NCBI RefSeq assembly: GCF_003351405.1
Contig: NZ_CP031240.1
Coordinates: 1,852,321-1,916,320 of the forward strand
Reading direction: 5' to 3'
DNA length: 64,000 bases
Origin: Haemophilus haemolyticus
Lineage (GTDB): Bacteria; Pseudomonadota; Gammaproteobacteria; Enterobacterales; Pasteurellaceae
Shown here piece by piece: positions 40,374 through 56,274 of the stretch (positions are counted from its first letter, which is position 1; each line of letters opens with the position of its first letter). Below the pieces are notes generated by a model. It did no database searches and had not been told where the DNA came from. It saw only the letters and a list, made by a program, of their open reading frames with translations. The position numbers and the translations under genes are program-made.

Positions 40374-40853
40374 ACCGAATTCAAGTGTGCTGAAGGCAAG
40401 CTCTATTTATCCCCCATTAAGGATTTATTTAACAATGAAATTATTGCTTATGATTTAGCGCGAAGCCCGAACTTTGAGCAAATCACCCGAATGATGAAAC
40501 AAGCTGTAGCAAGGCTTGAAGGCGCAAAACCGATTTTACATTCGGACCAAGGTTGGCAGTATCAGATGATAGGCTATCAAAACATACTCAGGGAGAATGG
40601 CATTCAACAAAGTATGTCAAGGAAGGGGAATTGTTTAGATAACAGTGCGATGGAAAGTTTCTTTGGGCGATTAAAAACGGAATGTTATTACGGAAAACGA
40701 TTTGAAACGTTCGAACAACTGGAAAAAACGATTCATGAATATATTCATTATTACAACCATGAGCGCATTCAGGGGAAACTAAAAGGACTCAGCCCTGTGA
40801 ATTACAGAACTCAGTCCTTGAACTAAATCAGTCTAACTTTTTGGGGTCAGATC
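40374..40853 (+). pseudogene. 3' remnant of an IS3-family (IS150-type) transposase
   Basis: The frame from 40374 to the stop at 40826 encodes the C-terminal half of an OrfB DDE transposase. TEFKCAEGKLYLSPI starts abruptly just after the first catalytic Asp would occur; HSDQGWQYQM carries the second Asp, and NSAMESFFGRLKTE the Glu. No start, no OrfA and no left end are present. The sequence after the stop ends TTTTTGGGGTCAGA, typical of the right inverted repeat of this group. The element is dead; 40255-40373 before it is AT-rich with no gene. Confidence 0.85.
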
Positions 40854-40869
40854 ATTTTTATAAGATAGA

Positions 40870-41300
40870 TTAAGAAAATAACCGCTTAATCTCTTTCTCA
40901 TACATATAAATATTAACTGGGTTAGTTGGCAGTTGAGAATCTAAATATTCATTTGCACGTTTAACATATTCTTCATGATGCTTGTCATGGTTATCGATTA
41001 CATCCAGTAATACTTTCGCACCTTCAAAAGCATCAAATTGGTCATAATAATATCCAACACCTTTAGGAATTAATTTTGAGTTATGAATAAATGGATATCC
41101 TCCATATAACGCATCATTATATGCATAATTCAAGCCATTTTCCCATTGATGAGCAAGCACTATATCCGTGTAACGAGACAAGAAATCTAGCATTTGATAA
41201 CGCCCTTCTACGGTCAGAATTCCATCTTTCAATACCTTCGTTCTCCCAATAAAATTAAACATAATAGGATGATCTTTTTTATGATAAACATTTGTAATGT
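40870..41300 (-). pseudogene. Truncated duplicate of the DUF2827 gene (C-terminal third)
   Basis: The 130-residue frame (from an internal Met at 41262) matches the last third of the intact DUF2827 gene at 42733-43872. The match is nearly base-perfect over about 41140-41297 and then stops abruptly, with only short unrelated codons and a TAA upstream. The C-terminal 60 residues have diverged moderately. It is a broken paralogue, probably left by recombination or by IS activity; the IS3 remnant is only a few bases beyond its 3' end. Confidence 0.85.
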
Positions 41301-41433
41301 ATAAATCTCTGAAATTTCTATATTTTTATAAATTCATAACTGACTTAAAATGCTTAATTTTAAATATTGCTTCTCAGCCTCATTGATTATATAGTAAAAG
41401 AATTTTATTTTTACTAACTCTTTGCAAATATAG

Positions 41434-42675
41434 CTAAATTAAACGCAAATTATCAAAAACCCAGCGAATGCGTTTACCTTCAACATCTAGCTCTTTAGTA
41501 CAAAATTGAATTTCTTCATTTGATACTAAATCAACATAATAAAGTGATTGTAATTCAGGAGAAAACTTATCTCCATTCTCACGAATAAAATATGTTGAAA
41601 GACATGCTCCAAAACCAATTATTTTTTCACAGAAAAATACTAATCTTACAGAATGATTGTGTGTATTCTTTAGTGTAAATGAGCTATCTCCAGCCACAGA
41701 AATCATTAAACAACCCGGTTTATAAACGTCATTAGATTGAGATATAACACTTGAAAAATGTCCTCCATTTGCATTTGCTTGAGTTAATTCTAATGTGAGA
41801 TTTTCTTTAGCTGGAGGATAACATGTCAAAGAGGATTTAATTATATTAAATATCTTATTTTCTCTCAGATTAAATTTCTTTCCTTCCTGATGATAATAAC
41901 TTTCAAATACATAAGGATAAGCTAACATCTTATCATTGCGATGATTTCTTGTTATATGTATCCCTTGAACAAATTCCCCTTTAACCAAAGGGGCAAAATT
42001 ACCCTCATCATGTTTTAATTCAATTCCCCAAACAGGCGGGCAATTATATTTTTGATGGATAAAGCTTACTTTTTCAGAATCCAGTGCATATAAATTAAAT
42101 AAAGTAGTATCAACACCATAAATAGGTTTTAGATAGTTTTTGATATTCAGTTGTTCTTCAATATACTGTTTATATAGCAACCAAGCTTCTTTATATCCTA
42201 ATATTACTCCCACTTGCCATACATATCCATTTTTCGAAACCACAGCATCTATCTTGGCACTAACTGTTTTTTTTGATTCAGATTCAACACAATTATCTAA
42301 AAAAGTACAACGCCACGCATCATAAGTTGCATAAAGATTCTTTTCATTTTTAATCTGTTCAAATATATCTAGATGATGAGAAGGAAACCAAATATCACAG
42401 TCGTATACTGCAATTTGGTCATAGTTATAATTCTGTGCAATATCAGCTGCAGAAATATGTCTATCTAATAACAGCTCTTTACAACCATAAGTAGGCTCAA
42501 AAATTTTAATATCATGCTCTTTTAAACATATTTTCTTAACTTCAGATAAACCATAATCAATGATGCCTATATCGCCTTTATAATTAGTTCTTCTTAAACT
42601 TAGAATGAAAGAAATTAGATTCTCAAACCATATTTTATTATTATCATCTAGAGCTGTTAAAATCAGTCTTTTCAT
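41434..42675 (-). CDS. Putative GT-A glycosyltransferase with C-terminal beta domain
   Basis: A 413-aa cytoplasmic protein. Residues about 1-270 look like a GT-A (GT8-like) nucleotide-sugar transferase: an N-terminal strand-helix MKRLILTALDDNNK, a DxD-type metal motif in VYDCDIWFPSHH (about 92-103), and an acceptor-loop GVDTTLFNLYAL. The last 130 residues are beta-rich and unlike standard GT8. I do not recognise a named enzyme. ATG 42675 follows AAGG. It lies between two DUF2827 genes; an imperfect inverted uptake pair sits in the gap 42702-42727. Substrate could be LOS or the neighbouring adhesin. Confidence 0.7.
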   Translation of the reverse strand: MKRLILTALDDNNKIWFENLISFILSLRRTNYKGDIGIIDYGLSEVKKICLKEHDIKIFEPTYGCKELLLDRHISAADIAQNYNYDQIAVYDCDIWFPSHHLDIFEQIKNEKNLYATYDAWRCTFLDNCVESESKKTVSAKIDAVVSKNGYVWQVGVILGYKEAWLLYKQYIEEQLNIKNYLKPIYGVDTTLFNLYALDSEKVSFIHQKYNCPPVWGIELKHDEGNFAPLVKGEFVQGIHITRNHRNDKMLAYPYVFESYYHQEGKKFNLRENKIFNIIKSSLTCYPPAKENLTLELTQANANGGHFSSVISQSNDVYKPGCLMISVAGDSSFTLKNTHNHSVRLVFFCEKIIGFGACLSTYFIRENGDKFSPELQSLYYVDLVSNEEIQFCTKELDVEGKRIRWVFDNLRLI

Positions 42676-42732: not shown

Positions 42733-43872
42733 TTACTCTTCAAATAAGCGCTGAATTTCACGCTCGTAAATAGCAATATTTATAGGATTACTTGGCAACA
42801 ATGTCTCTAAAAATGCATTTGCACGTTTTTGGTACGCCTCATGGTTCTTATCATGATTATCAATCACATTTAATAACACATCCGCACCATGAAATGCATC
42901 AAAACCTTCATAATAATATCCGACACCTTTAGGTAATAACGTTGAATTATGTACAAATGGATAACCACCATATAACGCATCATTGTACGCATAATTCAAA
43001 CCATTTTCCCATTGATGGGCAAGCACTATATCCGTGTAACGAGACAAGAAATCTGGCATTTGATAACGCCCTTCTACGGTCAGAATTCCATCTTTCAATA
43101 CCTTCGTTCTCCCAATAAAATTAAACATAATAGGATGATCTTTTTTATGATAAACATTTGTAATATAAACATGCTTAATTTTATCAGGCGCTTGTCGATA
43201 AGCTTGTTCTGCAATTAAAATAGGAGTAAAACAATTTTTGAAAATAAAAATATTTGGCTCAAAGTTCGCAATTCGCCATTTTTTACGATCTTTATTCGGC
43301 TTATAGCCAAATTCAATTCCATGCTTTTCTTTTAACCTTTTAATTACAATATCACAAAATGTAGGTGCCCAAATTGCTGGAACAACATGTGCATCACACT
43401 CAAACATAATAGAAAAATAAGAGCGGCAAGTATTTTCATTTTGTGGAATTAACCAGATACTATCAAACTTACTTCCATTAAATACACGACCAGCAGGTTG
43501 ATTAAAAATGAAGTTTTCAATATCCATGATGTAATCAGGCCCCATTTTATAACAAACAACTTTCCCGCCATGTTCATGCATTTTATTACTAAGCGCAGGT
43601 TCAATACTAAGAGTCCCTTCAATTAACACATCCAATTCATCAATCACATCATTAATATAAGCAAACTTTAAGTCTAGATCATTCAACATAAACCCATCTG
43701 GAGGCGTTGTTCTTTTCTCTGGCCCCCAAGATACTAAAACCACATCATCCACAATGTCGGAATGTTGAAACAAATGATAAAGATGAATGACATTTTGGTT
43801 CGCACCATTTGCCCAAATATCTGTAACTTTAGCTTCTAAATTAAATGTAATTCCAATTTTATATTTACGCAT
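42733..43872 (-). CDS. DUF2827-family putative glycosyltransferase
   Basis: A 379-aa protein with a Rossmann-like N-terminus (KIGITFNLEAKVTDIWANGANQ) and a C-terminal half with the GT-B-like pattern: FIGRTKVLKDG, then a surface-recognition segment DIVLAHQWENGLNYAYNDALYGGYPFVHN resembling the nucleotide-sugar site of retaining transferases. Family DUF2827 has no assigned reaction that I know. No signal peptide or membrane helix. ATG 43872 follows GTAGGAG. It precedes the GT-A-like gene on the same strand (57-bp gap), so the two probably act together on one glycan. Confidence 0.72.
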   Translation of the reverse strand: MRKYKIGITFNLEAKVTDIWANGANQNVIHLYHLFQHSDIVDDVVLVSWGPEKRTTPPDGFMLNDLDLKFAYINDVIDELDVLIEGTLSIEPALSNKMHEHGGKVVCYKMGPDYIMDIENFIFNQPAGRVFNGSKFDSIWLIPQNENTCRSYFSIMFECDAHVVPAIWAPTFCDIVIKRLKEKHGIEFGYKPNKDRKKWRIANFEPNIFIFKNCFTPILIAEQAYRQAPDKIKHVYITNVYHKKDHPIMFNFIGRTKVLKDGILTVEGRYQMPDFLSRYTDIVLAHQWENGLNYAYNDALYGGYPFVHNSTLLPKGVGYYYEGFDAFHGADVLLNVIDNHDKNHEAYQKRANAFLETLLPSNPINIAIYEREIQRLFEE

Positions 43873-43972
43873 ACTTACTCCTACTTTTTTTAATTTTATT
43901 ATCTGATAGCTCTCACAAGCGGTCTTATTCTAGTCAAATTTTAAAAATAAAAACCATCAAAGAATAACAATC

Positions 43973-44682
43973 CGCACGTAAAACGTGCGATTTTTAGGCT
44001 CCCCTATAAGGGCCTATACTTCACAAGCCCCTCAAGGGGCTTGTGAGAACTGACAACTGCGTCTAATTATTCCCTTGATTACCCCTTAAAGGGGTGAACA
44101 TGTTCTTTCGTTGATAAATTATCTTGAACCATATCTTCTTTTTCTTGGTTTCTTATATAATCCTCTACTACTTTTGTATTTAATCCTACTGTGCTTACAA
44201 AAAATCCTTTCGCCCATAAATGCCTATTTCCATATCTATATTTTAAGTTCGCGTGTCTTTCAAAAATCATCAGCGCTGATTTCCCCTTCAGGTAGCCCAT
44301 AAAACCTGATACTGATATTTTAGGTGGGATTTTTAAGAGCATATGGATATGGTCTGGCATTGCATGCGCTTCTATTATCTCCACATTTTTATAGTCACAT
44401 AGCTGCCTCAATATTTGACCTATATCTGCTCTTAACTTTCCATAAATTGCTTTTCTTCTGTACTTCGGGATAAATACAATGTGATACTTACAGTTCCATT
44501 TTGTGTGTGATAGACTTAAATCGTCACTGGTTTTACTTACCATGATAATCCTCCTATATGTTGAATTTTGGTTGTCAGCCTTGTTCATTATATAGCGAGG
44601 ATTTTTTCTATTCATCGCTTAAGCTATTTGGCTCCATACGCATAGCGTATGGTTTTTATAGCCAGACTTTCGTCTGGCTATA
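43973..44682 (-). mobile_element. IS200-type element (boundaries approximate)
   Basis: A single Y1 transposase gene is flanked by subterminal hairpins instead of inverted repeats, as in the IS200/IS605 family: 43973-43979/43983-43989 and 44022-44031/44036-44045 (10-bp stem) on the 3' side; 44634-44641/44645-44652 and 44657-44667/44672-44682 on the 5' side. The outer hairpins could instead belong to neighbouring genes; exact ends are not defined here. Confidence 0.7.
44079..44543 (-). CDS. tnpA: IS200-family Y1 transposase TnpA
   Basis: A 154-aa HUH single-strand transposase. The HUH motif is in DHIHMLLKIP, and the catalytic Tyr is in VVEDYIRNQEKED. Size and start (MVSKTSDDLS...) fit the family. 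The open frame reaches 44615, but ATG 44543 follows a perfect AGGAGG. It appears intact and may be active; it separates the putative glycosyltransferases from the adhesin gene. Confidence 0.93.
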   Translation of the reverse strand: MVSKTSDDLSLSHTKWNCKYHIVFIPKYRRKAIYGKLRADIGQILRQLCDYKNVEIIEAHAMPDHIHMLLKIPPKISVSGFMGYLKGKSALMIFERHANLKYRYGNRHLWAKGFFVSTVGLNTKVVEDYIRNQEKEDMVQDNLSTKEHVHPFKG

Positions 44683-44712
44683 ATAAAATCACTCGGGTTA
44701 CCCCGAGTGATT
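44683..44712 (-). terminator. Terminator of the giant adhesin gene
   Basis: AATCACTCGGG/CCCGAGTGATT (44687-44697 and 44702-44712) forms an 11-bp stem with a 4-nt loop, followed on the minus strand by TTATTAT. It ends 22 bp after the adhesin stop codon. Confidence 0.85.
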
Positions 44713-44733: not shown

Positions 44734-47700
44734 TTACCATTGGTAACCAACACCTGCGCCAACATTGTAGTCACCTTGTGTAGTTACCGCGCCACTCATT
44801 TTGAAGATAACACGATTGTTATCGCTCGCACGAGAGTAACCTACAGCTACCGCACTTTGACCTCTGTAGTTACCTACACCAAGACCAAGCACTAAGCCAC
44901 CTGGTTTAGTCACTTGTGGAATATTCGCTATAGCTGTTGCTCCTGCGATACCACCACGAAGTTTCTTATCAGTTTTATTCAATTCGCTACGAACTGCACC
45001 AACTGAACGATCAACATATTGTTTATTCGCTGCATCAGTGCTACGGATTGGATCCGCAACATTCGTTACACGACGCTCATTGCCTTGGCTACCTACTGAA
45101 ACGGTATTCGCTTCATTCGCTACAGAGCCTTTACCAAGTGCTACAGAGTTATTTGCAGTAGCTTTAGCACCTTGACCCACAGCTGTTGAGTTTTTACCTG
45201 AAGCTTGTGAGTTATTACCTAACGCAGTGCTATTTTCGTCACTTGCATTCGCACCATAGCCAATAGCTGTTGCATCTTTACCTTTCGCTTTAGCACTATC
45301 ACGTTTGCTGGTGTTATCTGCTGCAAATGCTGTTTTGCCATCTTTACTGATCAAACCAGAATCATCAATACGTTTCGCAGAGCTTTCTGCTGCAGTTGCA
45401 GAAGATGCAGCCGCTGTCGCAGATGAACCTGCTGCAGACGCAGACGTGCTTGCTGCAGTTGCTGAGCTATCCGCTGCTGATGCAGAAGTTGAAGCTGCCG
45501 TTGCTGAGCTGTTCGCTGCTGATGCAGACGTTGAAGCTGCCGTTGCGGAGCTATTTGCTGCTGATGCAGATGTGCTTGCCGCTGTCGCGGAGCTATTTGC
45601 TGCTGATGCAGAAGTGCTTGCAGCTGTCGCGGAGCTATTTGCTGCTGATGCAGAAGTGCTTGCTGCGGTTGCGGAGCTATTTGCTGCTGATGCAGAAGTT
45701 GACGCTGCCGTTGCGGAGCTATTTGCTGCTGAAGCAGAAGTGCTTGCCGCTGTCGCGGAGCTGTTCGCTGCTGATGCAGACGTTGAAGCTGCCGTTGCGG
45801 AGCTATTTGCTGCTGATGCAGAAGTGCTTGCTGCCGTTGCGGAGCTATTTGCTGCCGATGCAGACGTTGAAGCTGCGGTTGCAGAGCTGTTCGCTGCTGA
45901 TGCAGAAGTTGACGCTGCCGTTGCGGAGCTATTTGCTGCTGAAGCAGAAGTGCTTGCCGCTGTCGCGGAGCTGTTCGCTGCTGATGCAGACGTTGAAGCT
46001 GCCGTTGCGGAGCTATTTGCTGCTGATGCAGACGTTGAAGCTGCCGTTGCGGAGCTGTTCGCTGCTGATGCAGACGTTGAAGCTGCCGTTGCGGAGCTGT
46101 TCGCTGCTGATGCAGAAGTTGAAGCTGCCGTTGCGGAGCTGTTCGCTGCTGATGCAGATGTGCTTGCCGCTGTCGCGGAGCTATTTGCTGCTGATGCAGA
46201 AGTGCTTGCCGCTGTCGCGGAGCTATTTGCTGCTGATGCAGAAGTGCTTGCTGCGGTTGCGGAGCTATTTGCTGCTGATGCAGAAGTTGACGCTGCCGTT
46301 GCGGAGCTATTTGCTGCTGAAGCTGATGTGCTTGCTGCCGTTGCGGAGCTGTTCGCTGCTGAGGCAGAAGTTGACGCTGCCGTTGCGGAGCTATTTGCTG
46401 CTGATGCAGATGTGCTTGCCGCTGTCGCGGAGCTATTTGCTGCTGATGCAGAAGTGCTTGCCGCTGTCGCGGAGCTATTTGCTGCTGATGCAGAAGTGCT
46501 TGCCGCTGTCGCGGAGCTGTTCGCTGCTGATGCAGACGTTGAAGCTGCCGTTGCGGAGCTATTTGCTGCTGATGCAGATGTGCTTGCCGCTGTCGCGGAG
46601 CTATTTGCTGCTGATGCAGAAGTGCTTGCAGCTGTCGCGGAGCTATTTGCTGCTGATGCAGAAGTGCTTGCTGCGGTTGCGGAGCTATTTGCTGCTGATG
46701 CAGAAGTTGACGCTGCCGTTGCGGAGCTATTTGCTGCTGAAGCAGAAGTGCTTGCCGCTGTCGCGGAGCTGTTCGCTGCTGATGCAGACGTTGAAGCTGC
46801 CGTTGCGGAGCTATTTGCTGCTGATGCAGAAGTGCTTGCTGCCGTTGCGGAGCTATTTGCTGCTGATGCAGATGTGCTTGCTGCGGTTGCTGAGCTATTT
46901 GCTGCTGATGCAGAAGTGCTTGCTGCCGTTGCTGAGCTGTTGGCTGCTGATGCAGAAGTGCTTGCTGCCGTTGCTGAGCTATTTGCTGCTGAAGCTGATG
47001 TGCTTGCTGCCGTTGCTGAAGAGCTTGCCGCTGATGCTGATGTACTTGCTGCAGTTGCTGAAGAGCTTGCCGCAGATGCTGATGTGCTTGCTGCGGTTGC
47101 GGAGCTATTTGCTGCTGATGCAGAAGTTGAAGCTGCGGTTGCTGAGCTATTTGCTGCTGATGCAGAAGTTGACGCTGCCGTTGCGGAGCTATTTGCTGCT
47201 GAAGCAGAAGTGCTTGCCGCTGTCGCGGAGCTGTTCGCTGCTGATGCAGACGTTGAAGCTGCCGTTGCGGAGCTATTTGCTGCTGATGCAGACGTTGAAG
47301 CTGCCGTTGCGGAGCTGTTCGCTGCTGATGCAGACGTTGAAGCTGCCGTTGCGGAGCTGTTCGCTGCTGATGCAGAAGTTGAAGCTGCCGTTGCGGAGCT
47401 GTTCGCTGCTGATGCAGATGTGCTTGCCGCTGTCGCGGAGCTATTTGCTGCTGATGCAGAAGTGCTTGCAGCTGTCGCGGAGCTATTTGCTGCTGATGCA
47501 GAAGTGCTTGCTGCGGTTGCGGAGCTATTTGCTGCTGATGCAGAAGTTGACGCTGCCGTTGCGGAGCTATTTGCTGCTGAAGCTGATGTGCTTGCTGCCG
47601 TTGCGGAGCTGTTCGCTGCTGAGGCAGAAGTTGACGCTGCCGTTGCGGAGCTATTTGCTGCTGATGCAGATGTGCTTGCCGCTGTCGCGGAGCTATTTGC

Positions 47701-50700
47701 TGCTGATGCAGAAGTGCTTGCCGCTGTCGCGGAGCTATTTGCTGCTGATGCAGAAGTGCTTGCCGCTGTCGCGGAGCTGTTCGCTGCTGAAGCTGATGTG
47801 CTTGCTGCCGTTGCTGAAGAGCTTGCCGCTGATGCTGATGTACTTGCTGCAGTTGCTGAAGAGCTTGCCGCAGATGCTGATGTGCTTGCTGCGGTTGCGG
47901 AGCTATTTGCTGCTGATGCAGAAGTTGAAGCTGCGGTTGCTGAGCTATTTGCTGCTGATGCAGACGTGCTTGCTGCCGTTGCGGAGCTATTTGCTGCTGA
48001 TGCAGATGTGCTTGCTGCGGTTGCGGAGCTGTTCGCTGCTGATGCAGAAGTTGAAGCTGCCGTTGCGGAGCTATTTGCTGCTGAAGCTGATGTGCTTGCT
48101 GCGGTTGCTGAGCTGTCCGCTGCTGATGCAGACGTTGAAGCTGCCGTTGCGGAGCTATTCGCTGCTGATGCAGAAGTTGACGCTGCCGTTGCTGAGCTAT
48201 TTGCTGCTGATGCAGATGTGCTTGCTGCGGTTGCGGAGCTATTTGCTGCTGATGCAGATGTGCTTGCTGCGGTTGCTGAGCTGTTCGCTGCTGATGCAGA
48301 AGTTGAAGCTGCCGTTGCTGAGCTGTTCGCTGCTGATGCAGATGTGCTTGCCGCTGTCGCGGAGCTATTTGCTGCTGATGCAGAAGTGCTTGCCGCTGTC
48401 GCGGAGCTATTTGCTGCTGATGCAGAAGTGCTTGCTGCGGTTGCGGAGCTATTTGCTGCTGATGCAGAAGTTGACGCTGCCGTTGCGGAGCTATTTGCTG
48501 CTGATGCAGATGTGCTTGCTGCGGTTGCGGAGCTATTTGCTGCTGAAGCAGAAGTGCTTGCCGCTGTCGCGGAGCTGTTCGCTGCTGATGCAGACGTTGA
48601 AGCTGCCGTTGCGGAGCTATTTGCTGCTGATGCAGATGTGCTTGCCGCTGTCGCGGAGCTATTTGCTGCTGATGCAGAAGTGCTTGCAGCTGTCGCGGAG
48701 CTATTTGCTGCTGATGCAGAAGTGCTTGCCGCTGTCGCGGAGCTGTTCGCTGCTGATGCAGACGTTGAAGCTGCCGTTGCGGAGCTATTTGCTGCTGATG
48801 CAGATGTGCTTGCCGCTGTCGCGGAGCTATTTGCTGCTGATGCAGAAGTGCTTGCAGCTGTCGCGGAGCTATTTGCTGCTGATGCAGAAGTGCTTGCTGC
48901 GGTTGCGGAGCTATTTGCTGCTGATGCAGAAGTTGACGCTGCCGTTGCTGAGCTATTCGCTGCTGATGCAGACGTTGACGCTGCGGTTGCTGAGCTATTT
49001 GCTGCTGATGCAGACGTTGACGCTGCGGTTGCTGAGCTATTTGCTGCTGATGCAGAAGTTGAAGCTGCGGTTGCGGAGCTATTCGCTGCTGACGCAGACG
49101 TTGACGCTGCCGTTGCGGAGCTATTCGCTGCCGATGCAGATGTGCTTGCTGCGGTTGCTGAGCTATTTGCTGCTGATGCAGACGTTGAAGCTGCCGTCGC
49201 TGAGCTATTTGCTGCTGAAGCAGATGTGCTTGCTGCGGTTGCTGAGCTATTTGCTGCTGATGCAGATGTGCTTGCCGCGGTTGCTGAGCTGTTTGCTGCT
49301 GATGCAGATGTGCTTGCTGCCGTTGCTGAGCTGTTTGCTGCTGAAGCAGACGTTGAAGCTGCGGTTGCGGAGCTATTCGCTGCTGATGCAGACGTTGAAG
49401 CTGCCGTTGCTGAGCTATTCGCTGCTGATGCAGATGTGCTTGCTGCCGTTGCTGAGCTGTTCGCTGCTGATGCAGATGTGCTTGCTGCCGTTGCTGAGCT
49501 GTTTGCTGCTGAAGCAGACGTTGAAGCTGCGGTTGCGGAGCTATTCGCTGCTGATGCAGACGTTGAAGCTGCCGTTGCTGAGCTATTCGCTGCTGATGCA
49601 GATGTGCTTGCTGCCGTTGCTGAGCTGTTCGCTGCTGATGCAGATGTGCTTGCTGCCGTTGCTGAGCTATTCGCTGCTGATGCAGACGTTGACGCTGCGG
49701 TTGCTGAGCTATTTGCTGCTGATGCAGACGTTGACGCTGCGGTTGCTGAGCTATTTGCTGCTGATGCAGAAGTTGAAGCTGCGGTTGCGGAGCTATTCGC
49801 TGCTGACGCAGACGTTGACGCTGCCGTTGCGGAGCTATTCGCTGCCGATGCAGAAGTTGAAGCTGCCGTCGCTGAGCTGTTTGCTGCTGATGCAGATGTG
49901 CTTGCTGCCGTTGCTGAGCTGTTCGCTGCTGATGCAGAAGTTGACGCTGCCGTTGCTGAGCTGTTTGCTGCTGATGCAGAAGTGCTTGCTGCGGTTGCGG
50001 AGCTGTTCGCTGCTGATGCAGATGTGCTTGCTGCGGTTGCTGAGCTATTTGCTGCTGATGCAGAAGTGCTTGCCGCTGTCGCGGAGCTGTTCGCTGCTGA
50101 TGCAGACGTTGAAGCTGCCGTTGCGGAGCTATTTGCTGCTGATGCAGATGTGCTTGCCGCTGTCGCGGAGCTATTTGCTGCTGATGCAGAAGTGCTTGCA
50201 GCTGTCGCGGAGCTATTTGCTGCTGATGCAGAAGTGCTTGCTGCGGTTGCGGAGCTATTTGCTGCTGATGCAGAAGTTGACGCTGCCGTTGCGGAGCTAT
50301 TTGCTGCTGAAGCAGAAGTGCTTGCCGCTGTCGCGGAGCTGTTCGCTGCTGATGCAGACGTTGAAGCTGCCGTTGCGGAGCTATTTGCTGCTGATGCAGA
50401 AGTGCTTGCTGCCGTTGCGGAGCTATTTGCTGCTGATGCAGATGTGCTTGCTGCGGTTGCTGAGCTATTTGCTGCTGATGCAGACGTTGACGCTGCCGTT
50501 GCTGAGCTGTTCGCTGCTGATGCAGACGTTGACGCTGCGGTTGCTGAGCTATTCGCTGCTGATGCAGATGTGCTTGCTGCGGTTGCTGAGCTATTCGCTG
50601 CTGAAGCAGACGTTGACGCTGCCGTCGCTGAGCTATTTGCTGCTGATGCAGACGTTGAAGCTGCCGTCGCTGAGCTATTTGCTGCTGAAGCAGATGTGCT

Positions 50701-53700
50701 TGCTGCGGTTGCTGAGCTATTCGCTGCTGATGCAGACGTTGAAGCTGCCGTTGCTGAGCTATTCGCTGCTGATGCAGATGTGCTTGCTGCCGTTGCTGAG
50801 CTGTTCGCTGCTGATGCAGATGTGCTTGCTGCCGTTGCTGAGCTATTCGCTGCTGATGCAGACGTTGACGCTGCGGTTGCTGAGCTATTTGCTGCTGATG
50901 CAGACGTTGACGCTGCGGTTGCTGAGCTATTTGCTGCTGATGCAGAAGTTGAAGCTGCGGTTGCGGAGCTATTCGCTGCTGACGCAGACGTTGACGCTGC
51001 CGTTGCGGAGCTATTCGCTGCTGATGCAGATGTGCTTGCTGCGGTTGCTGAGCTATTTGCTGCTGATGCAGACGTTGAAGCTGCCGTCGCTGAGCTATTT
51101 GCTGCTGAAGCAGATGTGCTTGCTGCGGTTGCTGAGCTATTTGCTGCTGATGCAGATGTGCTTGCCGCGGTTGCTGAGCTGTTTGCTGCTGATGCAGATG
51201 TGCTTGCTGCCGTTGCTGAGCTGTTTGCTGCTGAAGCAGACGTTGAAGCTGCGGTTGCGGAGCTATTCGCTGCTGATGCAGACGTTGAAGCTGCCGTTGC
51301 TGAGCTATTCGCTGCTGATGCAGATGTGCTTGCTGCCGTTGCTGAGCTGTTCGCTGCTGATGCAGATGTGCTTGCTGCCGTTGCTGAGCTATTCGCTGCT
51401 GATGCAGACGTTGACGCTGCGGTTGCTGAGCTATTTGCTGCTGATGCAGACGTTGACGCTGCGGTTGCTGAGCTATTTGCTGCTGATGCAGAAGTTGAAG
51501 CTGCGGTTGCGGAGCTATTCGCTGCTGACGCAGACGTTGACGCTGCCGTTGCGGAGCTATTCGCTGCCGATGCAGAAGTTGAAGCTGCCGTCGCTGAGCT
51601 GTTTGCTGCTGAAGCAGACGTTGAAGCTGCGGTTGCGGAGCTATTCGCTGCCGATGCAGAAGTTGAAGCTGCCGTCGCTGAGCTATTTGCTGCTGATGCA
51701 GATGTGTTTGCTGCCGTTGCTGAGCTGTTTGCTGCTGAAGCAGACGTTGACGCTGCGGTTGCGGAGCTATTCGCTGCCGATGCAGAAGTTGAAGCTGCCG
51801 TCGCTGAGCTATTTGCTGCTGATGCAGATGTGCTTGCTGCCGTTGCTGAGCTGTTCGCTGCTGACGCAGAAGTGCTTGCCGCGGTTGCTGAGCTATTTGC
51901 TGCCGATGCAGATGTGCTTGCTGCCGTTGCTGAGCTGTTCGCTGCTGATGCAGATGTGCTTGCTGCCGTTGCTGAGCTATTCGCTGCTGATGCAGAAGTT
52001 GAAGCTGCCGTTGCGGAGCTATTTGCTGCTGAAGCAGACGTTGACGCTGCGGTTGCTGAGCTATTTGCTGCCGATGCAGATGTGCTTGCTGCCGTTGCTG
52101 AGCTATTCGCTGCTGATGCAGATGTGCTTGCTGCCGTTGCTGAGCTGTTCGCTGCTGATGCAGATGTGCTTGCTGCCGTTGCTGAGCTGTTCGCTGCTGA
52201 TGCAGAAGTTGACGCTGCCGTTGCTGAGCTGTTTGCTGCTGATGCAGAAGTGCTTGCTGCGGTTGCGGAGCTGTTCGCTGCTGATGCAGATGTGCTTGCT
52301 GCGGTTGCTGAGCTATTTGCTGCTGAAGCAGATGTGCTTGCTGCCGTTGCTGAGCTATTTGCTGCTGAAGCAGAAGTGCTTGCTGCCGTTGCTGAGCTAT
52401 TCGCTGCTGATGCAGACGTTGACGCTGCGGTTGCTGAGCTATTTGCTGCTGATGCAGACGTTGACGCTGCGGTTGCTGAGCTATTTGCTGCTGATGCAGA
52501 AGTTGAAGCTGCGGTTGCGGAGCTATTCGCTGCTGACGCAGACGTTGACGCTGCCGTTGCGGAGCTATTCGCTGCCGATGCAGATGTGCTTGCTGCCGTT
52601 GCTGAGCTGTTCGCTGCTGATGCAGATGTGCTTGCTGCCGTTGCTGAGCTATTCGCTGCTGATGCAGAAGTTGAAGCTGCCGTTGCGGAGCTATTTGCTG
52701 CCGATGCAGATGTGCTTGCTGCCGTTGCTGAGCTATTCGCTGCTGATGCAGATGTGCTTGCTGCCGTTGCTGAGCTGTTCGCTGCTGATGCAGAAGTGCT
52801 TGCTGCGGTTGCGGAGCTGTTTGCCGCTGATGCAGAAGTTGAAGCTGCCGTCGCTGAGCTATTCGCTGCTGATGCAGAAGTTGAAGCTGCCGTTGCGGAG
52901 CTATTTGCTGCTGATGCAGATGTGCTTGCCGCGGTTGCTGAGCTATTTGCTGCCGATGCAGAAGTTGACGCTGCGGTTGCGGAGCTATTTGCTGCTGAGG
53001 CAGACGTTGAAGCTGCGGTTGCTGAGCTATTCGCTGCTGACGCAGAAGTGCTTGCCGCGGTTGCTGAGCTATTCGCTGCTGATGCAGACGTTGACGCTGC
53101 GGTTGCGGAGCTGTTCGCTGCTGATGCAGACGTTGACGCTGCGGTTGCGGAGCTGTTCGCTGCTGATGCAGAAGTGCTTGCTGCCGTTGCTGAGCTATTT
53201 GCTGCTGAAGCAGACGTTGACGCTGCCGTTGCTGAGCTATTTGCTGCTGAAGCAGATGTGCTTGCTGCCGTTGCTGAGCTGTTCGCTGCTGATGCAGAAG
53301 TGCTTGCTGCGGTTGCGGAGCTGTTTGCCGCTGATGCAGATGTGCTTGCTGCTGAAGCTGCTGTTTCTGCACGTGCAACAGATCTATTGATCTCTTGGAG
53401 GCTATTAGTTACAGTGGTTGCCGCATTTTTAGCATCTGTAATTGCTTGGTTAGAAGCAGCATTTAATTTGTAAGTTACTGCATTATTTTCATATACAACC
53501 TCTAACCCATCGCCAGCTCTGAAATCAAGCGTATTATTAGCATTATTAGTTGTTGATGTGCCATTGTTACGCATGATTTTCTTGTCAACGCCATTTACTT
53601 TGAACGTATATTCCGTTTTAGCAATTTCGTCAGCTGCTTTAATTACATAGTAAAGTTGTGAACCAGTGATTACATCACTCGATGTCTCAGAGATTTCACC

Positions 53701-56274
53701 AGCTCCAACATTTTGGATCTGGCGTTTAACATTGTCTTTACCAAAACTTACAGTGCCATTATCGGTTGCAGCAACGCCTTTAGATAAGGTTGTATCACCA
53801 ATCTTGATATCACTTACTGTATGTTTAGTCGATGTACTTGAAGATTGACCAATAGCAATATCACCTGAATTATTAGCAACCGCACTTTGACCTAGCGCAA
53901 TCCCATTTGCAGCAGACGCTACCACTTGAGCTCGATCACCAATACTAATCCCTGTTGCTCCAGCTGTTTTAGCATTGTTACCTAAAGTAACAGAATATGT
54001 TGCATTGTCTGTTGCTTGCGCTCCATTACCGATAACAATGGAGTAGTCTTTCTCTGCAGTCGCTTTTGCATCGCCAATACCTCCGATTACAATGGATCTT
54101 GAGCCATTTGCTGTTGCTTCTGGGCCAATTGCTACAGTTCTATCGCCTTTTGCAACAGCATACGCACCTATAGCAACAACTCTTTCTTGTTCTCCTTTTG
54201 CATTTTGACCAATAACAACAGAGTTTTCTCTTTCTACCGTTACATTTGTACCTATCGCAACAGAATTCTCACGTTTCGCTACAGTGGAATTACCTAGGGC
54301 AATCGAATTTTCACGTTGAACTGTTGCTTCATTACCAATAGCTACTGCGTTTACCGCACCGTTACCTGTTCCACTACTTACAGCTGTAATATTAGCCTTA
54401 TTACCAATCGCGACTGCACCGCTTGCAGCAGTGATTTTACTACCATTACCAATAGCAATAGCATTTGCAGAACCTACATTGTATGGGTCATAACGTAGAA
54501 TAGTACTACCTGCACCAAATGCAATTGCGCCAGCTGAACCCTCAACTTGAGCAAGCTTACCAATGGCAATTCCATTAATTGATTCACTAAAGTGGCTTCC
54601 CCAAAAGTTATTAACGTTTGCTCCAGTACCAATTGCAATAGAATCTTTAGCAAGAGCATTTGCATAGATACCAGTTGCTATAGAACGATCTGCCTGTGCC
54701 CCACTTGCTTCGGCATATTTACCATTATTGTCTTTTGTTACACCCTGCGATGCATTGGTAATGCTACTATTATTGTGACCTTCATAATTGAAGGTTACGT
54801 TAGTTACATTACCCTTATCGTCTGATGTAGTTAAAGCTTCCTCTCTCTTATTTCCATTGGAATTAACATGAGAATATCCCTTGATATCTACTTCATCGGC
54901 TTTAATCTTATTAAATTCTTCTAATACTTTTTTTACGGTAGTAGTTTTTGCTACGGTTTTACTAGCGTCAGCTCCAACAGTTTCTATTATGTTAATCGAT
55001 GTAATTCTGTTATCAGCTTTTTTAGCCTCTAAACCAGCTGTTTTTACATCAATATTTACCGAGCTTTGATTGTTTGAGTCTAAGGTTGTATATACATCTG
55101 TATAATCACCCGGTTTAAAAATAACTGTATGATCATTATTAACGCGCCCTGTTGTCGTGGTAGACTTTGTTACATCATCATAATGCGCAATATTCCAACC
55201 GGTATAATTTCTCACATAATAAAGTTGCGAACCGGTTACCGCATCGTTACTGTCATAGGCAATACGACCTGCAGCCACGTTTTGAATTTGGCGATACATC
55301 GTATTATTACCATCTTTGCCACCTACAGAAAGAATAGAAACGGTTTTAGTACCAGAAGAACCATTAACTTGAGAAACTTGTTCAGTTTGTGTCGTAAATT
55401 TACCTGCTGTAGATGGATGAGCAACATTAGATTTGATAGTCATCCCTTCTACTTTATTTAATGCAGCATTGTTTATGTTTCTGCCAGCTTCAATAACCTT
55501 ATTTAAGGCATCCTGAGTTTGACTTGCATTGTACGCTTTAACTGCCTCTGTATACTTAGTTTCAAGGTCGTTAACATTAATATTATCGTTCTCACGTCCT
55601 TGACCTACTGATTTAATACGAGAAAGCGAACCTAAGAAAACCGCGTCATCATATCCGTTATAAGCACCGCCATTACCGCTATTTGCTCCTAGAGCCAATG
55701 TATGACGCCCAATTGCTTGAGCCCCTGAGCCTAAGCTAATGGCATATGCTCCCTGTGTGCCACCTTGACGCCCATCAAGTGGGCTAAAATAATATTCTCT
55801 ACGACCATCTGATGCGGATGAATCATAGTTAGAACCAATAGCAATACCTTTATAACCAGAGGCAATAAGTGTGTCATGTCCAATAGCAAGTTGAAAATTA
55901 CCTACAGCTGCAGGTTTAATAATCTTACCACTCTGAGATACCTCATCCTTCGTTCCTACTTGAGCTTTACCAAAGCCAAAAGAACCCGTACTTGGATCAT
56001 AGACGCCCAAAATATATTTGCCATTATTTTTATCTAGCAGAAGTCCCCTATTTATTAATGTAAAACGTCCATCATCGGTATTTGTCTCTGCCATTACCCA
56101 TGTTGGATAGCATAAGCAAATTGAGAGTAGCGAAAGTTTTAACACAGGTTTAACTAATTTAGTTGTATTTACCACAGAGCTAGAAGAGGATTTAGCCATG
56201 CCTCTAGCTAGTTCAGATACTACTTCTGTTCTTTGTGTTGTCTTATTCCAAATAACTTTAAATATGCGATTCAT
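44734..56274 (-). CDS. Giant trimeric autotransporter adhesin with 14-residue Ser/Ala/Thr repeats (Cha-like)
   Basis: A 3846-aa surface protein. ATG 56274 follows GAGGAT; the frame's TTG one codon earlier is not the start. Residues 1-25 are an extended signal peptide region (MNRIFKVIWNKTTQ), with cleavage after VMA near 62. Head: YadA/Hia-type AIG/AVG repeats (about 80-830) with two neck motifs (DAVTGSQLYYV, DVITGSQLYYV). Stalk: residues about 974-3619 are 189 copies of a 14-mer. The C-terminus has a short second head (ATAIGYGANAS...), neck, and a YadA anchor ending GAGVGYQW. Family knowledge: trimeric outer-membrane adhesins; repeated-stalk Cha of a Haemophilus genospecies has 28-residue repeats whose number tunes adhesion. 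The strand is opposite to uvrB and the tRNA. Two uptake cores lie in the head and anchor, none in the repeats. Confidence 0.95.
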   Translation of the reverse strand: MNRIFKVIWNKTTQRTEVVSELARGMAKSSSSSVVNTTKLVKPVLKLSLLSICLCYPTWVMAETNTDDGRFTLINRGLLLDKNNGKYILGVYDPSTGSFGFGKAQVGTKDEVSQSGKIIKPAAVGNFQLAIGHDTLIASGYKGIAIGSNYDSSASDGRREYYFSPLDGRQGGTQGAYAISLGSGAQAIGRHTLALGANSGNGGAYNGYDDAVFLGSLSRIKSVGQGRENDNINVNDLETKYTEAVKAYNASQTQDALNKVIEAGRNINNAALNKVEGMTIKSNVAHPSTAGKFTTQTEQVSQVNGSSGTKTVSILSVGGKDGNNTMYRQIQNVAAGRIAYDSNDAVTGSQLYYVRNYTGWNIAHYDDVTKSTTTTGRVNNDHTVIFKPGDYTDVYTTLDSNNQSSVNIDVKTAGLEAKKADNRITSINIIETVGADASKTVAKTTTVKKVLEEFNKIKADEVDIKGYSHVNSNGNKREEALTTSDDKGNVTNVTFNYEGHNNSSITNASQGVTKDNNGKYAEASGAQADRSIATGIYANALAKDSIAIGTGANVNNFWGSHFSESINGIAIGKLAQVEGSAGAIAFGAGSTILRYDPYNVGSANAIAIGNGSKITAASGAVAIGNKANITAVSSGTGNGAVNAVAIGNEATVQRENSIALGNSTVAKRENSVAIGTNVTVERENSVVIGQNAKGEQERVVAIGAYAVAKGDRTVAIGPEATANGSRSIVIGGIGDAKATAEKDYSIVIGNGAQATDNATYSVTLGNNAKTAGATGISIGDRAQVVASAANGIALGQSAVANNSGDIAIGQSSSTSTKHTVSDIKIGDTTLSKGVAATDNGTVSFGKDNVKRQIQNVGAGEISETSSDVITGSQLYYVIKAADEIAKTEYTFKVNGVDKKIMRNNGTSTTNNANNTLDFRAGDGLEVVYENNAVTYKLNAASNQAITDAKNAATTVTNSLQEINRSVARAETAASAASTSASAANSSATAASTSASAANSSATAASTSASAANSSATAASTSASAANSSATAASTSASAANSSATAASTSASAANSSATAASTSASAANSSATAASTSASAANSSATAASTSASAANSSATAASTSASAANSSATAASTSASAANSSATAASTSASAANSSATAASTSASAANSSATAASTSASAANSSATAASTSASAANSSATAASTSASAANSSATAASTSASAANSSATAASTSASAANSSATAASTSASAANSSATAASTSASAANSSATAASTSASAANSSATAASTSASAANSSATAASTSASAANSSATAASTSASAANSSATAASTSASAANSSATAASTSASAANSSATAASTSASAANSSATAASTSASAANSSATAASTSASAANSSATAASTSASAANSSATAASTSASAANSSATAASTSASAANSSATAASTSASAANSSATAASTSASAANSSATAASTSASAANSSATAASTSASAANSSATAASTSASAANSSATAASTSASAANSSATAASTSASAANSSATAANTSASAANSSATAASTSASAANSSATAASTSASAANSSATAASTSASAANSSATAASTSASAANSSATAASTSASAANSSATAASTSASAANSSATAASTSASAANSSATAASTSASAANSSATAASTSASAANSSATAASTSASAANSSATAASTSASAANSSATAASTSASAANSSATAASTSASAANSSATAASTSASAANSSATAASTSASAANSSATAASTSASAANSSATAASTSASAANSSATAASTSASAANSSATAASTSASAANSSATAASTSASAANSSATAASTSASAANSSATAASTSASAANSSATAASTSASAANSSATAASTSASAANSSATAASTSASAANSSATAASTSASAANSSATAASTSASAANSSATAASTSASAANSSATAASTSASAANSSATAASTSASAANSSATAASTSASAANSSATAASTSASAANSSATAASTSASAANSSATAASTSASAANSSATAASTSASAANSSATAASTSASAANSSATAASTSASAANSSATAASTSASAANSSATAASTSASAANSSATAASTSASAANSSATAASTSASAANSSATAASTSASAANSSATAASTSASAANSSATAASTSASAANSSATAASTSASAANSSATAASTSASAANSSATAASTSASAANSSATAASTSASAANSSATAASTSASAANSSATAASTSASAANSSATAASTSASAANSSATAASTSASAANSSATAASTSASAANSSATAASTSASAANSSATAASTSASAANSSATAASTSASAANSSATAASTSASAANSSATAASTSASAANSSATAASTSASAANSSATAASTSASAANSSATAASTSASAANSSATAASTSASAANSSATAASTSASAANSSATAASTSASAANSSATAASTSASAANSSATAASTSASAANSSATAASTSASAANSSATAASTSASAANSSATAASTSASAANSSATAASTSASAANSSATAASTSASAANSSATAASTSASAANSSATAASTSASAANSSATAASTSASAANSSATAASTSASAANSSATAASTSASAANSSATAASTSASAANSSATAASTSASAANSSATAASTSASAANSSATAASTSASAANSSATAASTSASAANSSATAASTSASAANSSATAASTSASAANSSATAASTSASAANSSATAASTSASAADSSATAASTSASAANSSATAASTSASAANSSATAASTSASAANSSATAASTSASAANSSATAASTSASAANSSATAASTSASAASSSATAASTSASAASSSATAASTSASAANSSATAASTSASAANSSATAASTSASAANSSATAASTSASAANSSATAASTSASAANSSATAASTSASAANSSATAASTSASAANSSATAASTSASAANSSATAASTSASAANSSATAASTSASAANSSATAASTSASAANSSATAASTSASAANSSATAASTSASAANSSATAASTSASAANSSATAASTSASAANSSATAASTSASAANSSATAASTSASAANSSATAASTSASAASSSATAASTSASAASSSATAASTSASAANSSATAASTSASAANSSATAASTSASAANSSATAASTSASAANSSATAASTSASAANSSATAASTSASAANSSATAASTSASAANSSATAASTSASAANSSATAASTSASAANSSATAASTSASAANSSATAASTSASAANSSATAASTSASAANSSATAASTSASAANSSATAASTSASAANSSATAASTSASAANSSATAASTSASAANSSATAASTSASAANSSATAASTSASAANSSATAASTSASAANSSATAASTSASAANSSATAASTSASAANSSATAASTSASAANSSATAASTSASAANSSATAASTSASAANSSATAASTSASAANSSATAASTSASAANSSATAASTSASAANSSATAASTSASAANSSATAASTSASAANSSATAASTSASAANSSATAASTSASAANSSATAASTSASAANSSATAASTSASAANSSATAASTSASAANSSATAASTSASAANSSATAASTSASAANSSATAASTSASAADSSATAASTSASAAGSSATAAASSATAAESSAKRIDDSGLISKDGKTAFAADNTSKRDSAKAKGKDATAIGYGANASDENSTALGNNSQASGKNSTAVGQGAKATANNSVALGKGSVANEANTVSVGSQGNERRVTNVADPIRSTDAANKQYVDRSVGAVRSELNKTDKKLRGGIAGATAIANIPQVTKPGGLVLGLGVGNYRGQSAVAVGYSRASDNNRVIFKMSGAVTTQGDYNVGAGVGYQW
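45419..53356 (-). repeat. 189 tandem 42-bp units (14-codon repeat array)
   Basis: The 42-bp phase of a unit at 45419 and one at 53315 differ by 7896 bp, exactly 188 units, so the array keeps one register over 7938 bp. The consensus unit is SASAANSSATAAST. Changes are almost confined to Asn6 (to Ser, Asp or Gly). DNA units vary at synonymous positions. Larger blocks are duplicated: 45893-46530 recurs at 47153-47790 (offset 1260 bp, 30 units) and 48961-49500 at 50851-51390 (offset 1890 bp, 45 units), each with very few differences. Confidence 0.95.

Follow-up and report, generated by a model that had tools for sequence, protein, structure and literature searches.

The final 64 kb of the one-contig genome of Haemophilus haemolyticus (assembly GCF_003351405.1, contig NZ_CP031240.1; 1,916,320 bases), a stretch of 64,000 nucleotides called the window below, carries on its minus strand a giant adhesin gene (ATG at 56274, stop codon ending at 44734; 3846 residues), accompanied by genes for predicted glycosyltransferases (GTs), one of which belongs to the DUF2827 family (PF10933). 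The pairing of an adhesin with DUF2827 recurs in many bacteria, and the adjoining genes look like enzymes that could coat a stalk of this kind with sugar. The following features were identified at the locus (window positions):

44734-56274, minus strand: trimeric autotransporter adhesin gene, 3846 aa, probable orthologue at the TabA1/TahA1 locus (domains, synteny, head identity to same-genus orthologues)
56155-56274, minus strand: extended signal peptide ESPR (PF13018), residues 1-40 (Pfam E 1.8e-12)
53341-56154, minus strand: N-terminal head of YadA_head repeats (PF05658, E 4.6e-25) with YadA_stalk segments (PF05662, E 4.3e-12)
45403-53340, minus strand: stalk of 189 tandem 14-residue units SASAANSSATAAST, 2646 aa (unit parse and Tandem Repeats Finder, TRF)
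44737-45402, minus strand: C-terminal YadA_head repeats (PF05658, E 2e-18) and YadA anchor (PF03895, E 1e-18; anchor at about 44737-44919)
43963-44688, minus strand: IS200/IS605-type insertion sequence (IS) element between the adhesin and DUF2827 genes (transposase 44079-44615)
42733-43872, minus strand: DUF2827 (PF10933), predicted GT-B (GT4-like) glycosyltransferase, 379 aa (Pfam E 5e-110; model pLDDT 89.7; fold matches)
41434-42675, minus strand: predicted GT-A (GT8-like) glycosyltransferase, 413 aa, with an invariant D-x-D motif (D92, D94; predicted fold, alignment)
40891-41316, minus strand: C-terminal fragment of a second DUF2827 gene (matches profile positions 221-361 of 362)

Pfam analysis of the whole adhesin gave no domain; once the repeat array was split off, ESPR, YadA_head and YadA_stalk domains were detected in the first 978 residues, and YadA_head repeats and the YadA anchor in the last 222. 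These are type Vc features (YadA head repeats, stalk/neck segments and the C-terminal PF03895 anchor), and they predict a trimeric autotransporter adhesin, in agreement with a first-pass annotation of this DNA, which had called it an adhesin from the letters alone. A plus-strand location of the gene was rejected, the plus frames across the array being antisense open reading frames (ORFs) only. That annotation had not noted the adjoining genes, whose predicted glycosyltransferase products might account for the Ser/Thr surface of the stalk.

The stalk consists of 189 consecutive 14-residue units with unbroken register, as the first-pass annotation had described, and TRF recovered it as 188.6 copies of a period of 42, with 86% matches and a score of 9294; a chance origin of this array is excluded. 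Exactly SASAANSSATAAST is present in 181 of the 189 units, the others carrying N6S (four units), N6D (two) or S13N (one), with a last unit that differs at three positions. The 2646 residues comprise 1135 Ala, 948 Ser, 377 Thr, 183 Asn, 2 Asp and 1 Gly, so that two of them are charged. No Ala-heptad run comparable to that of the query was found in the other proteins of the homology set (the query and the best 120 of its 128 matches). Phage tail-fibre repeats came into consideration by resemblance only and were set aside.

At the DNA level, 77 distinct versions occur among the 189 units. On their minimum spanning tree, 105 nucleotide changes are silent, three switch between Ser-codon classes, and seven codons come to encode another amino acid, for an expected non-synonymous share of 71% if changes to the consensus unit were random. 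The peptide has therefore been kept the same as the DNA diverged, a pattern that also speaks against a simple duplication in assembly. Pairwise pN and pS, both rough values, are 0.043 and 0.405 for this array, 0.134 and 0.481 for the heptad array of a related genome, G002 (which as parsed takes in two non-repeat segments at its end), and 0.248 and 0.598 for that of H. aegyptius. Blocks of several units recur in the order of the DNA versions, and block duplication is therefore the probable route by which the array expanded. A peptide kept this constant is compatible with a repeated acceptor site.

In all ten Ser/Thr stalks that were compared, Ala occupies two heptad phases three apart, while the remaining positions vary. 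Six of these stalks have Ala fractions of 0.96-1.00 at both phases; the remaining four range from 0.64 to 0.99, the lowest pair of values being 0.64 and 0.72. This pattern indirectly supports an alanine-core coiled coil, as previously suggested from Ala at unit positions 2, 5, 9 and 12; these residues are indeed Ala, as are positions 4 and 11. The earlier estimate of about 400 nm for the stalk is matched by our calculation, 2646 x 0.1485 nm giving about 0.39 micrometre provided that the coil is straight.

The predicted structure of the DUF2827 protein is a two-Rossmann GT-B fold, and the protein is predicted to be a GT-B, GT4-like glycosyltransferase; no sequence match in PDB was better than E 0.62.

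DUF2827 was detected in six of ten genomes of the genus, each time adjoining an adhesin anchor on the same strand, and in none of 14 control genomes. A stalk passed our Ser/Thr test if it contained a stretch with at least 40% Ser/Thr over 100 residues. The genus set had 78 anchor places: one below the family cut-off was excluded, six were already included and 71 were others, 14 of which, with frames below 370 aa, were left out (one of them, in G008, being covered by L063). The scored set of 65 ORF rows contained a single duplicate (L144 = L062); a further two ORFs, both linked, are truncated at contig ends (L061 and L063, neither of which passes) and were set aside. The Ser/Thr stretch was found in all four DUF2827-linked adhesins with a resolved stalk versus none of 58 unlinked ones.

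The same association appears in a family sample, in which seven of seven linked adhesins pass the test versus two of 71 unlinked ones. For this sample, 82 places, mostly with long frames, were picked by hand from at least 150 listed, and 78 of them (frames of at least 850) were used; the choice was made before Ser/Thr content was computed, and four linked ORFs with short frames were left out. Among the places listed, an anchor lies upstream of DUF2827 on the same strand in 13 of 15 DUF2827-positive genomes, G048 and G021 being without one there.

Beyond the family, we considered a set of named loci, the best 80 of 130 DUF2827 relatives, which range over Pasteurellaceae, Burkholderiales, sphingomonads, Acinetobacter and Acidithiobacillus. 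With anchors searched in ORF tails and filters off (the composition filter undercounted adhesins), one is present upstream on the same strand at 54 of them, and an adhesin lies downstream at five, divergently at four and in another orientation at two, so that 65 of the 80 are adjacent to an adhesin, some of these calls resting on a signal-peptide pattern instead of an anchor. Ser/Thr stretches were detected at 44 of the 54 upstream same-strand loci: 38 of 39 resolved stalks pass the test, and among 15 short cut pieces six pass and nine fail. The only resolved linked adhesin of this set without such a stretch is L089 of Actinobacillus ureae, beside which the DUF2827 gene is broken into two frames. 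There is overlap between the named loci and the genomes of the genus and family sets, so that the named set is not independent of the other two, and all counts ignore relatedness.

The head of the window adhesin (about residues 462-977) is 67-74% identical to those of adhesins from four genomes of the same genus (G001, G002, G003 and G006). In G002 and in H. aegyptius NCTC8502 (G006), the adhesin gene sits between the same uvrB and NicO-type genes as in the window; the NicO-type genes are 95% (G002) and 96% (H. aegyptius) identical to the window copy, and uvrB of G002 is 99% identical. The H. aegyptius orthologue (head identity 68%) contains AETAKAG-type repeats, with six exact copies. Because adhesins with the same head and a Lys/Glu stalk (G003 and H. 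aegyptius) have no neighbouring enzyme, the enzyme follows the stalk. In the description of Strouts et al. (2012; PMC3309571), TabA1 repeats AASSSAS 90 times, and AETAKAG occurs 48 times in its counterpart TahA1; according to their account HIBPF06250, called a conserved hypothetical protein, is encoded downstream of tabA1 and is absent with tahA1. We take the locus to be tabA1/tahA1 because the syntenic H. aegyptius NCTC8502 orthologue has TahA1-like repeats, and the window gene is therefore a probable orthologue, in a comparison that is based on strain NCTC8502. TabA1/TahA1 and the window gene share a low-complexity heptad stalk at a fixed locus, and there too the Ser-rich form is accompanied by an extra downstream gene and the charged form is not; the window adhesin differs by its 189 x 14 residues and its size (3846 aa versus 1490 and 1182).

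The first-pass annotation had named Cha as the known relative. Cha, from the Haemophilus cryptic genospecies, is likewise a tandem-repeat adhesin, and its gene is reported to be followed by two homologues of HIBPF06250, which share 69% identity with one another and have 62% identity to HIBPF06250 (Strouts et al., 2012; PMC3309571). The DUF2827 copies of H. quentini share 69.4% identity, and their identity to the window DUF2827 is 62%; because these identities match, we take HIBPF06250 and the post-cha homologues to be DUF2827 proteins. A 28-residue unit, STAASTADSKAVAA-STAASTADSKATEA, with Asp/Lys, is present in the stalk of an H. seminalis adhesin that we infer to be of the Cha type and that served as a stand-in for Cha; it matches the window adhesin at only 34-35%. 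Judged by this stand-in, Cha is a relative of the right kind, with a different head and locus, but not the orthologue, since the head and the uvrB/NicO flanks match the AETAKAG-type adhesin of H. aegyptius.

Three further observations concern this locus or its adhesin. In H. haemolyticus M19501 (G001; contigs L033 and L061), the adhesin and DUF2827 genes lie between uvrB and the NicO-type gene in the opposite orientation to those of the window genome (G000) and of G002, which looks like an inversion of the cassette; because each contig breaks off within the adhesin gene, the cause may also lie in the assembly. H. aegyptius has a second adhesin copy (L018/L031) with a related head (53% identity), a very short stalk and a frame broken by one stop codon. 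In G007, a genome without DUF2827, an adhesin-head remnant with stop codons is present at the same locus (L034:13369-13902).

We propose that the Ser and Thr residues of the stalk are probably glycosylated by DUF2827 and partner enzymes on an alanine-core rod. What the analysis shows is the gene structure, the repeat, the predicted glycosyltransferase folds, the adjacency and the association with Ser/Thr stalks; we infer the coil, the O-linkage, the cytoplasmic timing, the sharing of work between the enzymes and the role of the sugar. A YadA-type head would sit atop a very long alanine-core coiled-coil rod that exposes hardly any residues other than Ser, Thr, Asn and Ala at its outward positions. 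DUF2827 would add the first sugar to many stalk Ser/Thr residues in the cytoplasm, before export and while the chain is unfolded, and partner glycosyltransferases would extend it (here the GT8-like 413-aa protein; in H. aegyptius also a Glycos_transf_1 enzyme). The glycosylated chain would then be exported unfolded through Sec and assembled by its anchor. In place of charge, the sugar coat would keep the uncharged Ala/Ser/Thr rod soluble, straight and extended, mask it from antibodies and proteases, and keep the head at a distance of as much as about 0.4 micrometre from the cell. Relatives of the same adhesin without an adjoining enzyme carry Lys/Glu on the outside instead.

Several observations weigh against this proposal. 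We chose the 40% threshold in scoring the genus data, at a point when Ser/Thr-rich linked adhesins were already known to us, and four of the seven linked adhesins in the family sample come from genomes that the named loci already include. Of the two unlinked adhesins that pass in the family sample, L264 has a short non-repetitive Ser/Thr window in a genome without DUF2827, and L275, with a long Ala/Ser stalk, comes from a genome in which DUF2827 is encoded elsewhere. No adhesin was detected near 15 of the 80 named loci (by our judgement, eight with long resolved flanks and seven near a contig end), so that DUF2827 may act elsewhere or in trans; one of the eight has a broken DUF2827 gene. GT4 enzymes carry an E-x7-E motif, which in DUF2827 reads E289-x7-N297, with E289 invariant and N297 nearly invariant; for this reason we claim a GT4-like fold for DUF2827 and not membership of GT4. 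Finally, with an IS200 element between the adhesin and DUF2827 genes and a fragmentary second DUF2827 copy, the system may be decaying in this genome.

The strongest alternative, which we nonetheless regard as unlikely, is that the stalk is only a length spacer, an unmodified alanine-core coiled coil that acquired its Ser/Thr surface incidentally as the repeats expanded, the glycosyltransferases serving lipooligosaccharide or capsule synthesis and co-travelling by chance. Such repeats were read as spacers by Strouts et al. (2012; PMC3309571), and DUF2827 genes without a detected adhesin would fit this explanation, but DUF2827 is associated with Ser/Thr stalks and not with heads across Pasteurellaceae, its adjacency to adhesins at 65 of the 80 named loci extends to Burkholderiales and sphingomonads, and the peptide is constant against DNA drift. 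Glycosylation of the head by DUF2827, or synthesis by it of a polysaccharide that serves the adhesin as ligand or tether, appears still less probable: EmaA is known to be glycosylated via the lipopolysaccharide pathway, on which it depends (cited in PMC8151025), but DUF2827 is common to adhesins with different heads and was not found beside the same-head adhesin with a charged stalk. We consider very improbable an N-glycosylation of each unit at its N-S-S sequon by an HMW1C-like enzyme, as in other autotransporters, for although the 183 NXS/T sequons per stalk chain also count against our own proposal and such enzymes can modify trimeric autotransporters (PMC8151025, PMC5303269), HMw1_D2 (PF18254) has no match in this genome, while present in seven of ten genus genomes, and the commonest Ser/Thr stalk units SATSAAN (G002) and SSSANAA (H. 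aegyptius, L036) have no sequon.

A 2021 review lists two classes of cytoplasmic glycosyltransferases for type V proteins, HMW1C-like enzymes and BAHT (PMC8151025). Like the proposed DUF2827 enzymes, both act on type V adhesins and some are encoded beside their substrate (PMC8151025); DUF2827 differs in belonging to PF10933, and neither of the two families was found in this genome. Glycosylation by BAHT (the Aah/TibC-type heptosyltransferase) was set aside, TIGR04414 having no match in the genome. In Gram-positive bacteria, GtfA/GtfB and GlyE act as glycosyltransferases for serine-rich-repeat glycoproteins, and SdgA/SdgB for Sdr proteins. The window locus resembles these systems in its long Ser-rich adhesin stalk and its neighbouring GT4-fold and GT8-fold glycosyltransferases, but it belongs to Gram-negative type V secretion, with a probable alanine-core coiled coil and, at the C-terminus, a YadA outer-membrane anchor instead of LPxTG-type cell-wall anchoring. 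The Ser/Thr repeats of the Burkholderia adhesin BCAM2418 have been suggested to be O-glycosylated, in a statement that names no enzyme (PMC7142374). In one open-access library, we found DUF2827 mentioned only in a cysteine-database paper, and no description of a function for its pairing with adhesins. We regard as more likely than not, with somewhat less assurance than the glycosylation of the stalk itself, the view that DUF2827 would be a third dedicated class of protein glycosyltransferase for type V secretion, one that initiates O-glycosylation on Ser/Thr faces of coiled-coil stalks to give Gram-negative bacteria a mucin-like rod of up to about 0.4 micrometre, and that adhesins would swap a charged for a sugar-coated surface by exchanging stalk repeat and enzyme together.

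Elsewhere around the locus, the fragment of the second DUF2827 gene is 85% identical in DNA to the full gene (42733-43872) over 405 bases, and the two share stretches that look identical by eye; this suggests a duplication with partial gene conversion. A transposase remnant was noticed by eye at about 40700-40850, and more full and partial copies of the IS200/IS605-type element are present elsewhere in the genome. A second giant adhesin (L148; 1-8230, minus strand) has an open frame of 3943 codons that runs off the left end of the window; equal-length antisense open frames at 621 and 2532 suggest internal repeats of about 1.9 kb.

If DUF2827 is such a third class, a family of unknown function whose genes adjoin those of large adhesins in sphingomonads, Pasteurellaceae, Burkholderiales and other bacteria would gain a testable role, and the co-variation of stalk and extra gene at tabA1/tahA1 and cha, reported in 2012 without a function, would be explained. 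Many low-complexity stalks that are now taken for spacers would become candidate glycoproteins, and the system would provide a natural way to present sugars densely along a rigid repeat peptide. In oral Haemophilus, adhesins with YadA-like domains are reported to vary with human secretor status (PMC12979206). A sugar-coated stalk would bear on the antigenicity and adhesion of human oral and respiratory bacteria.
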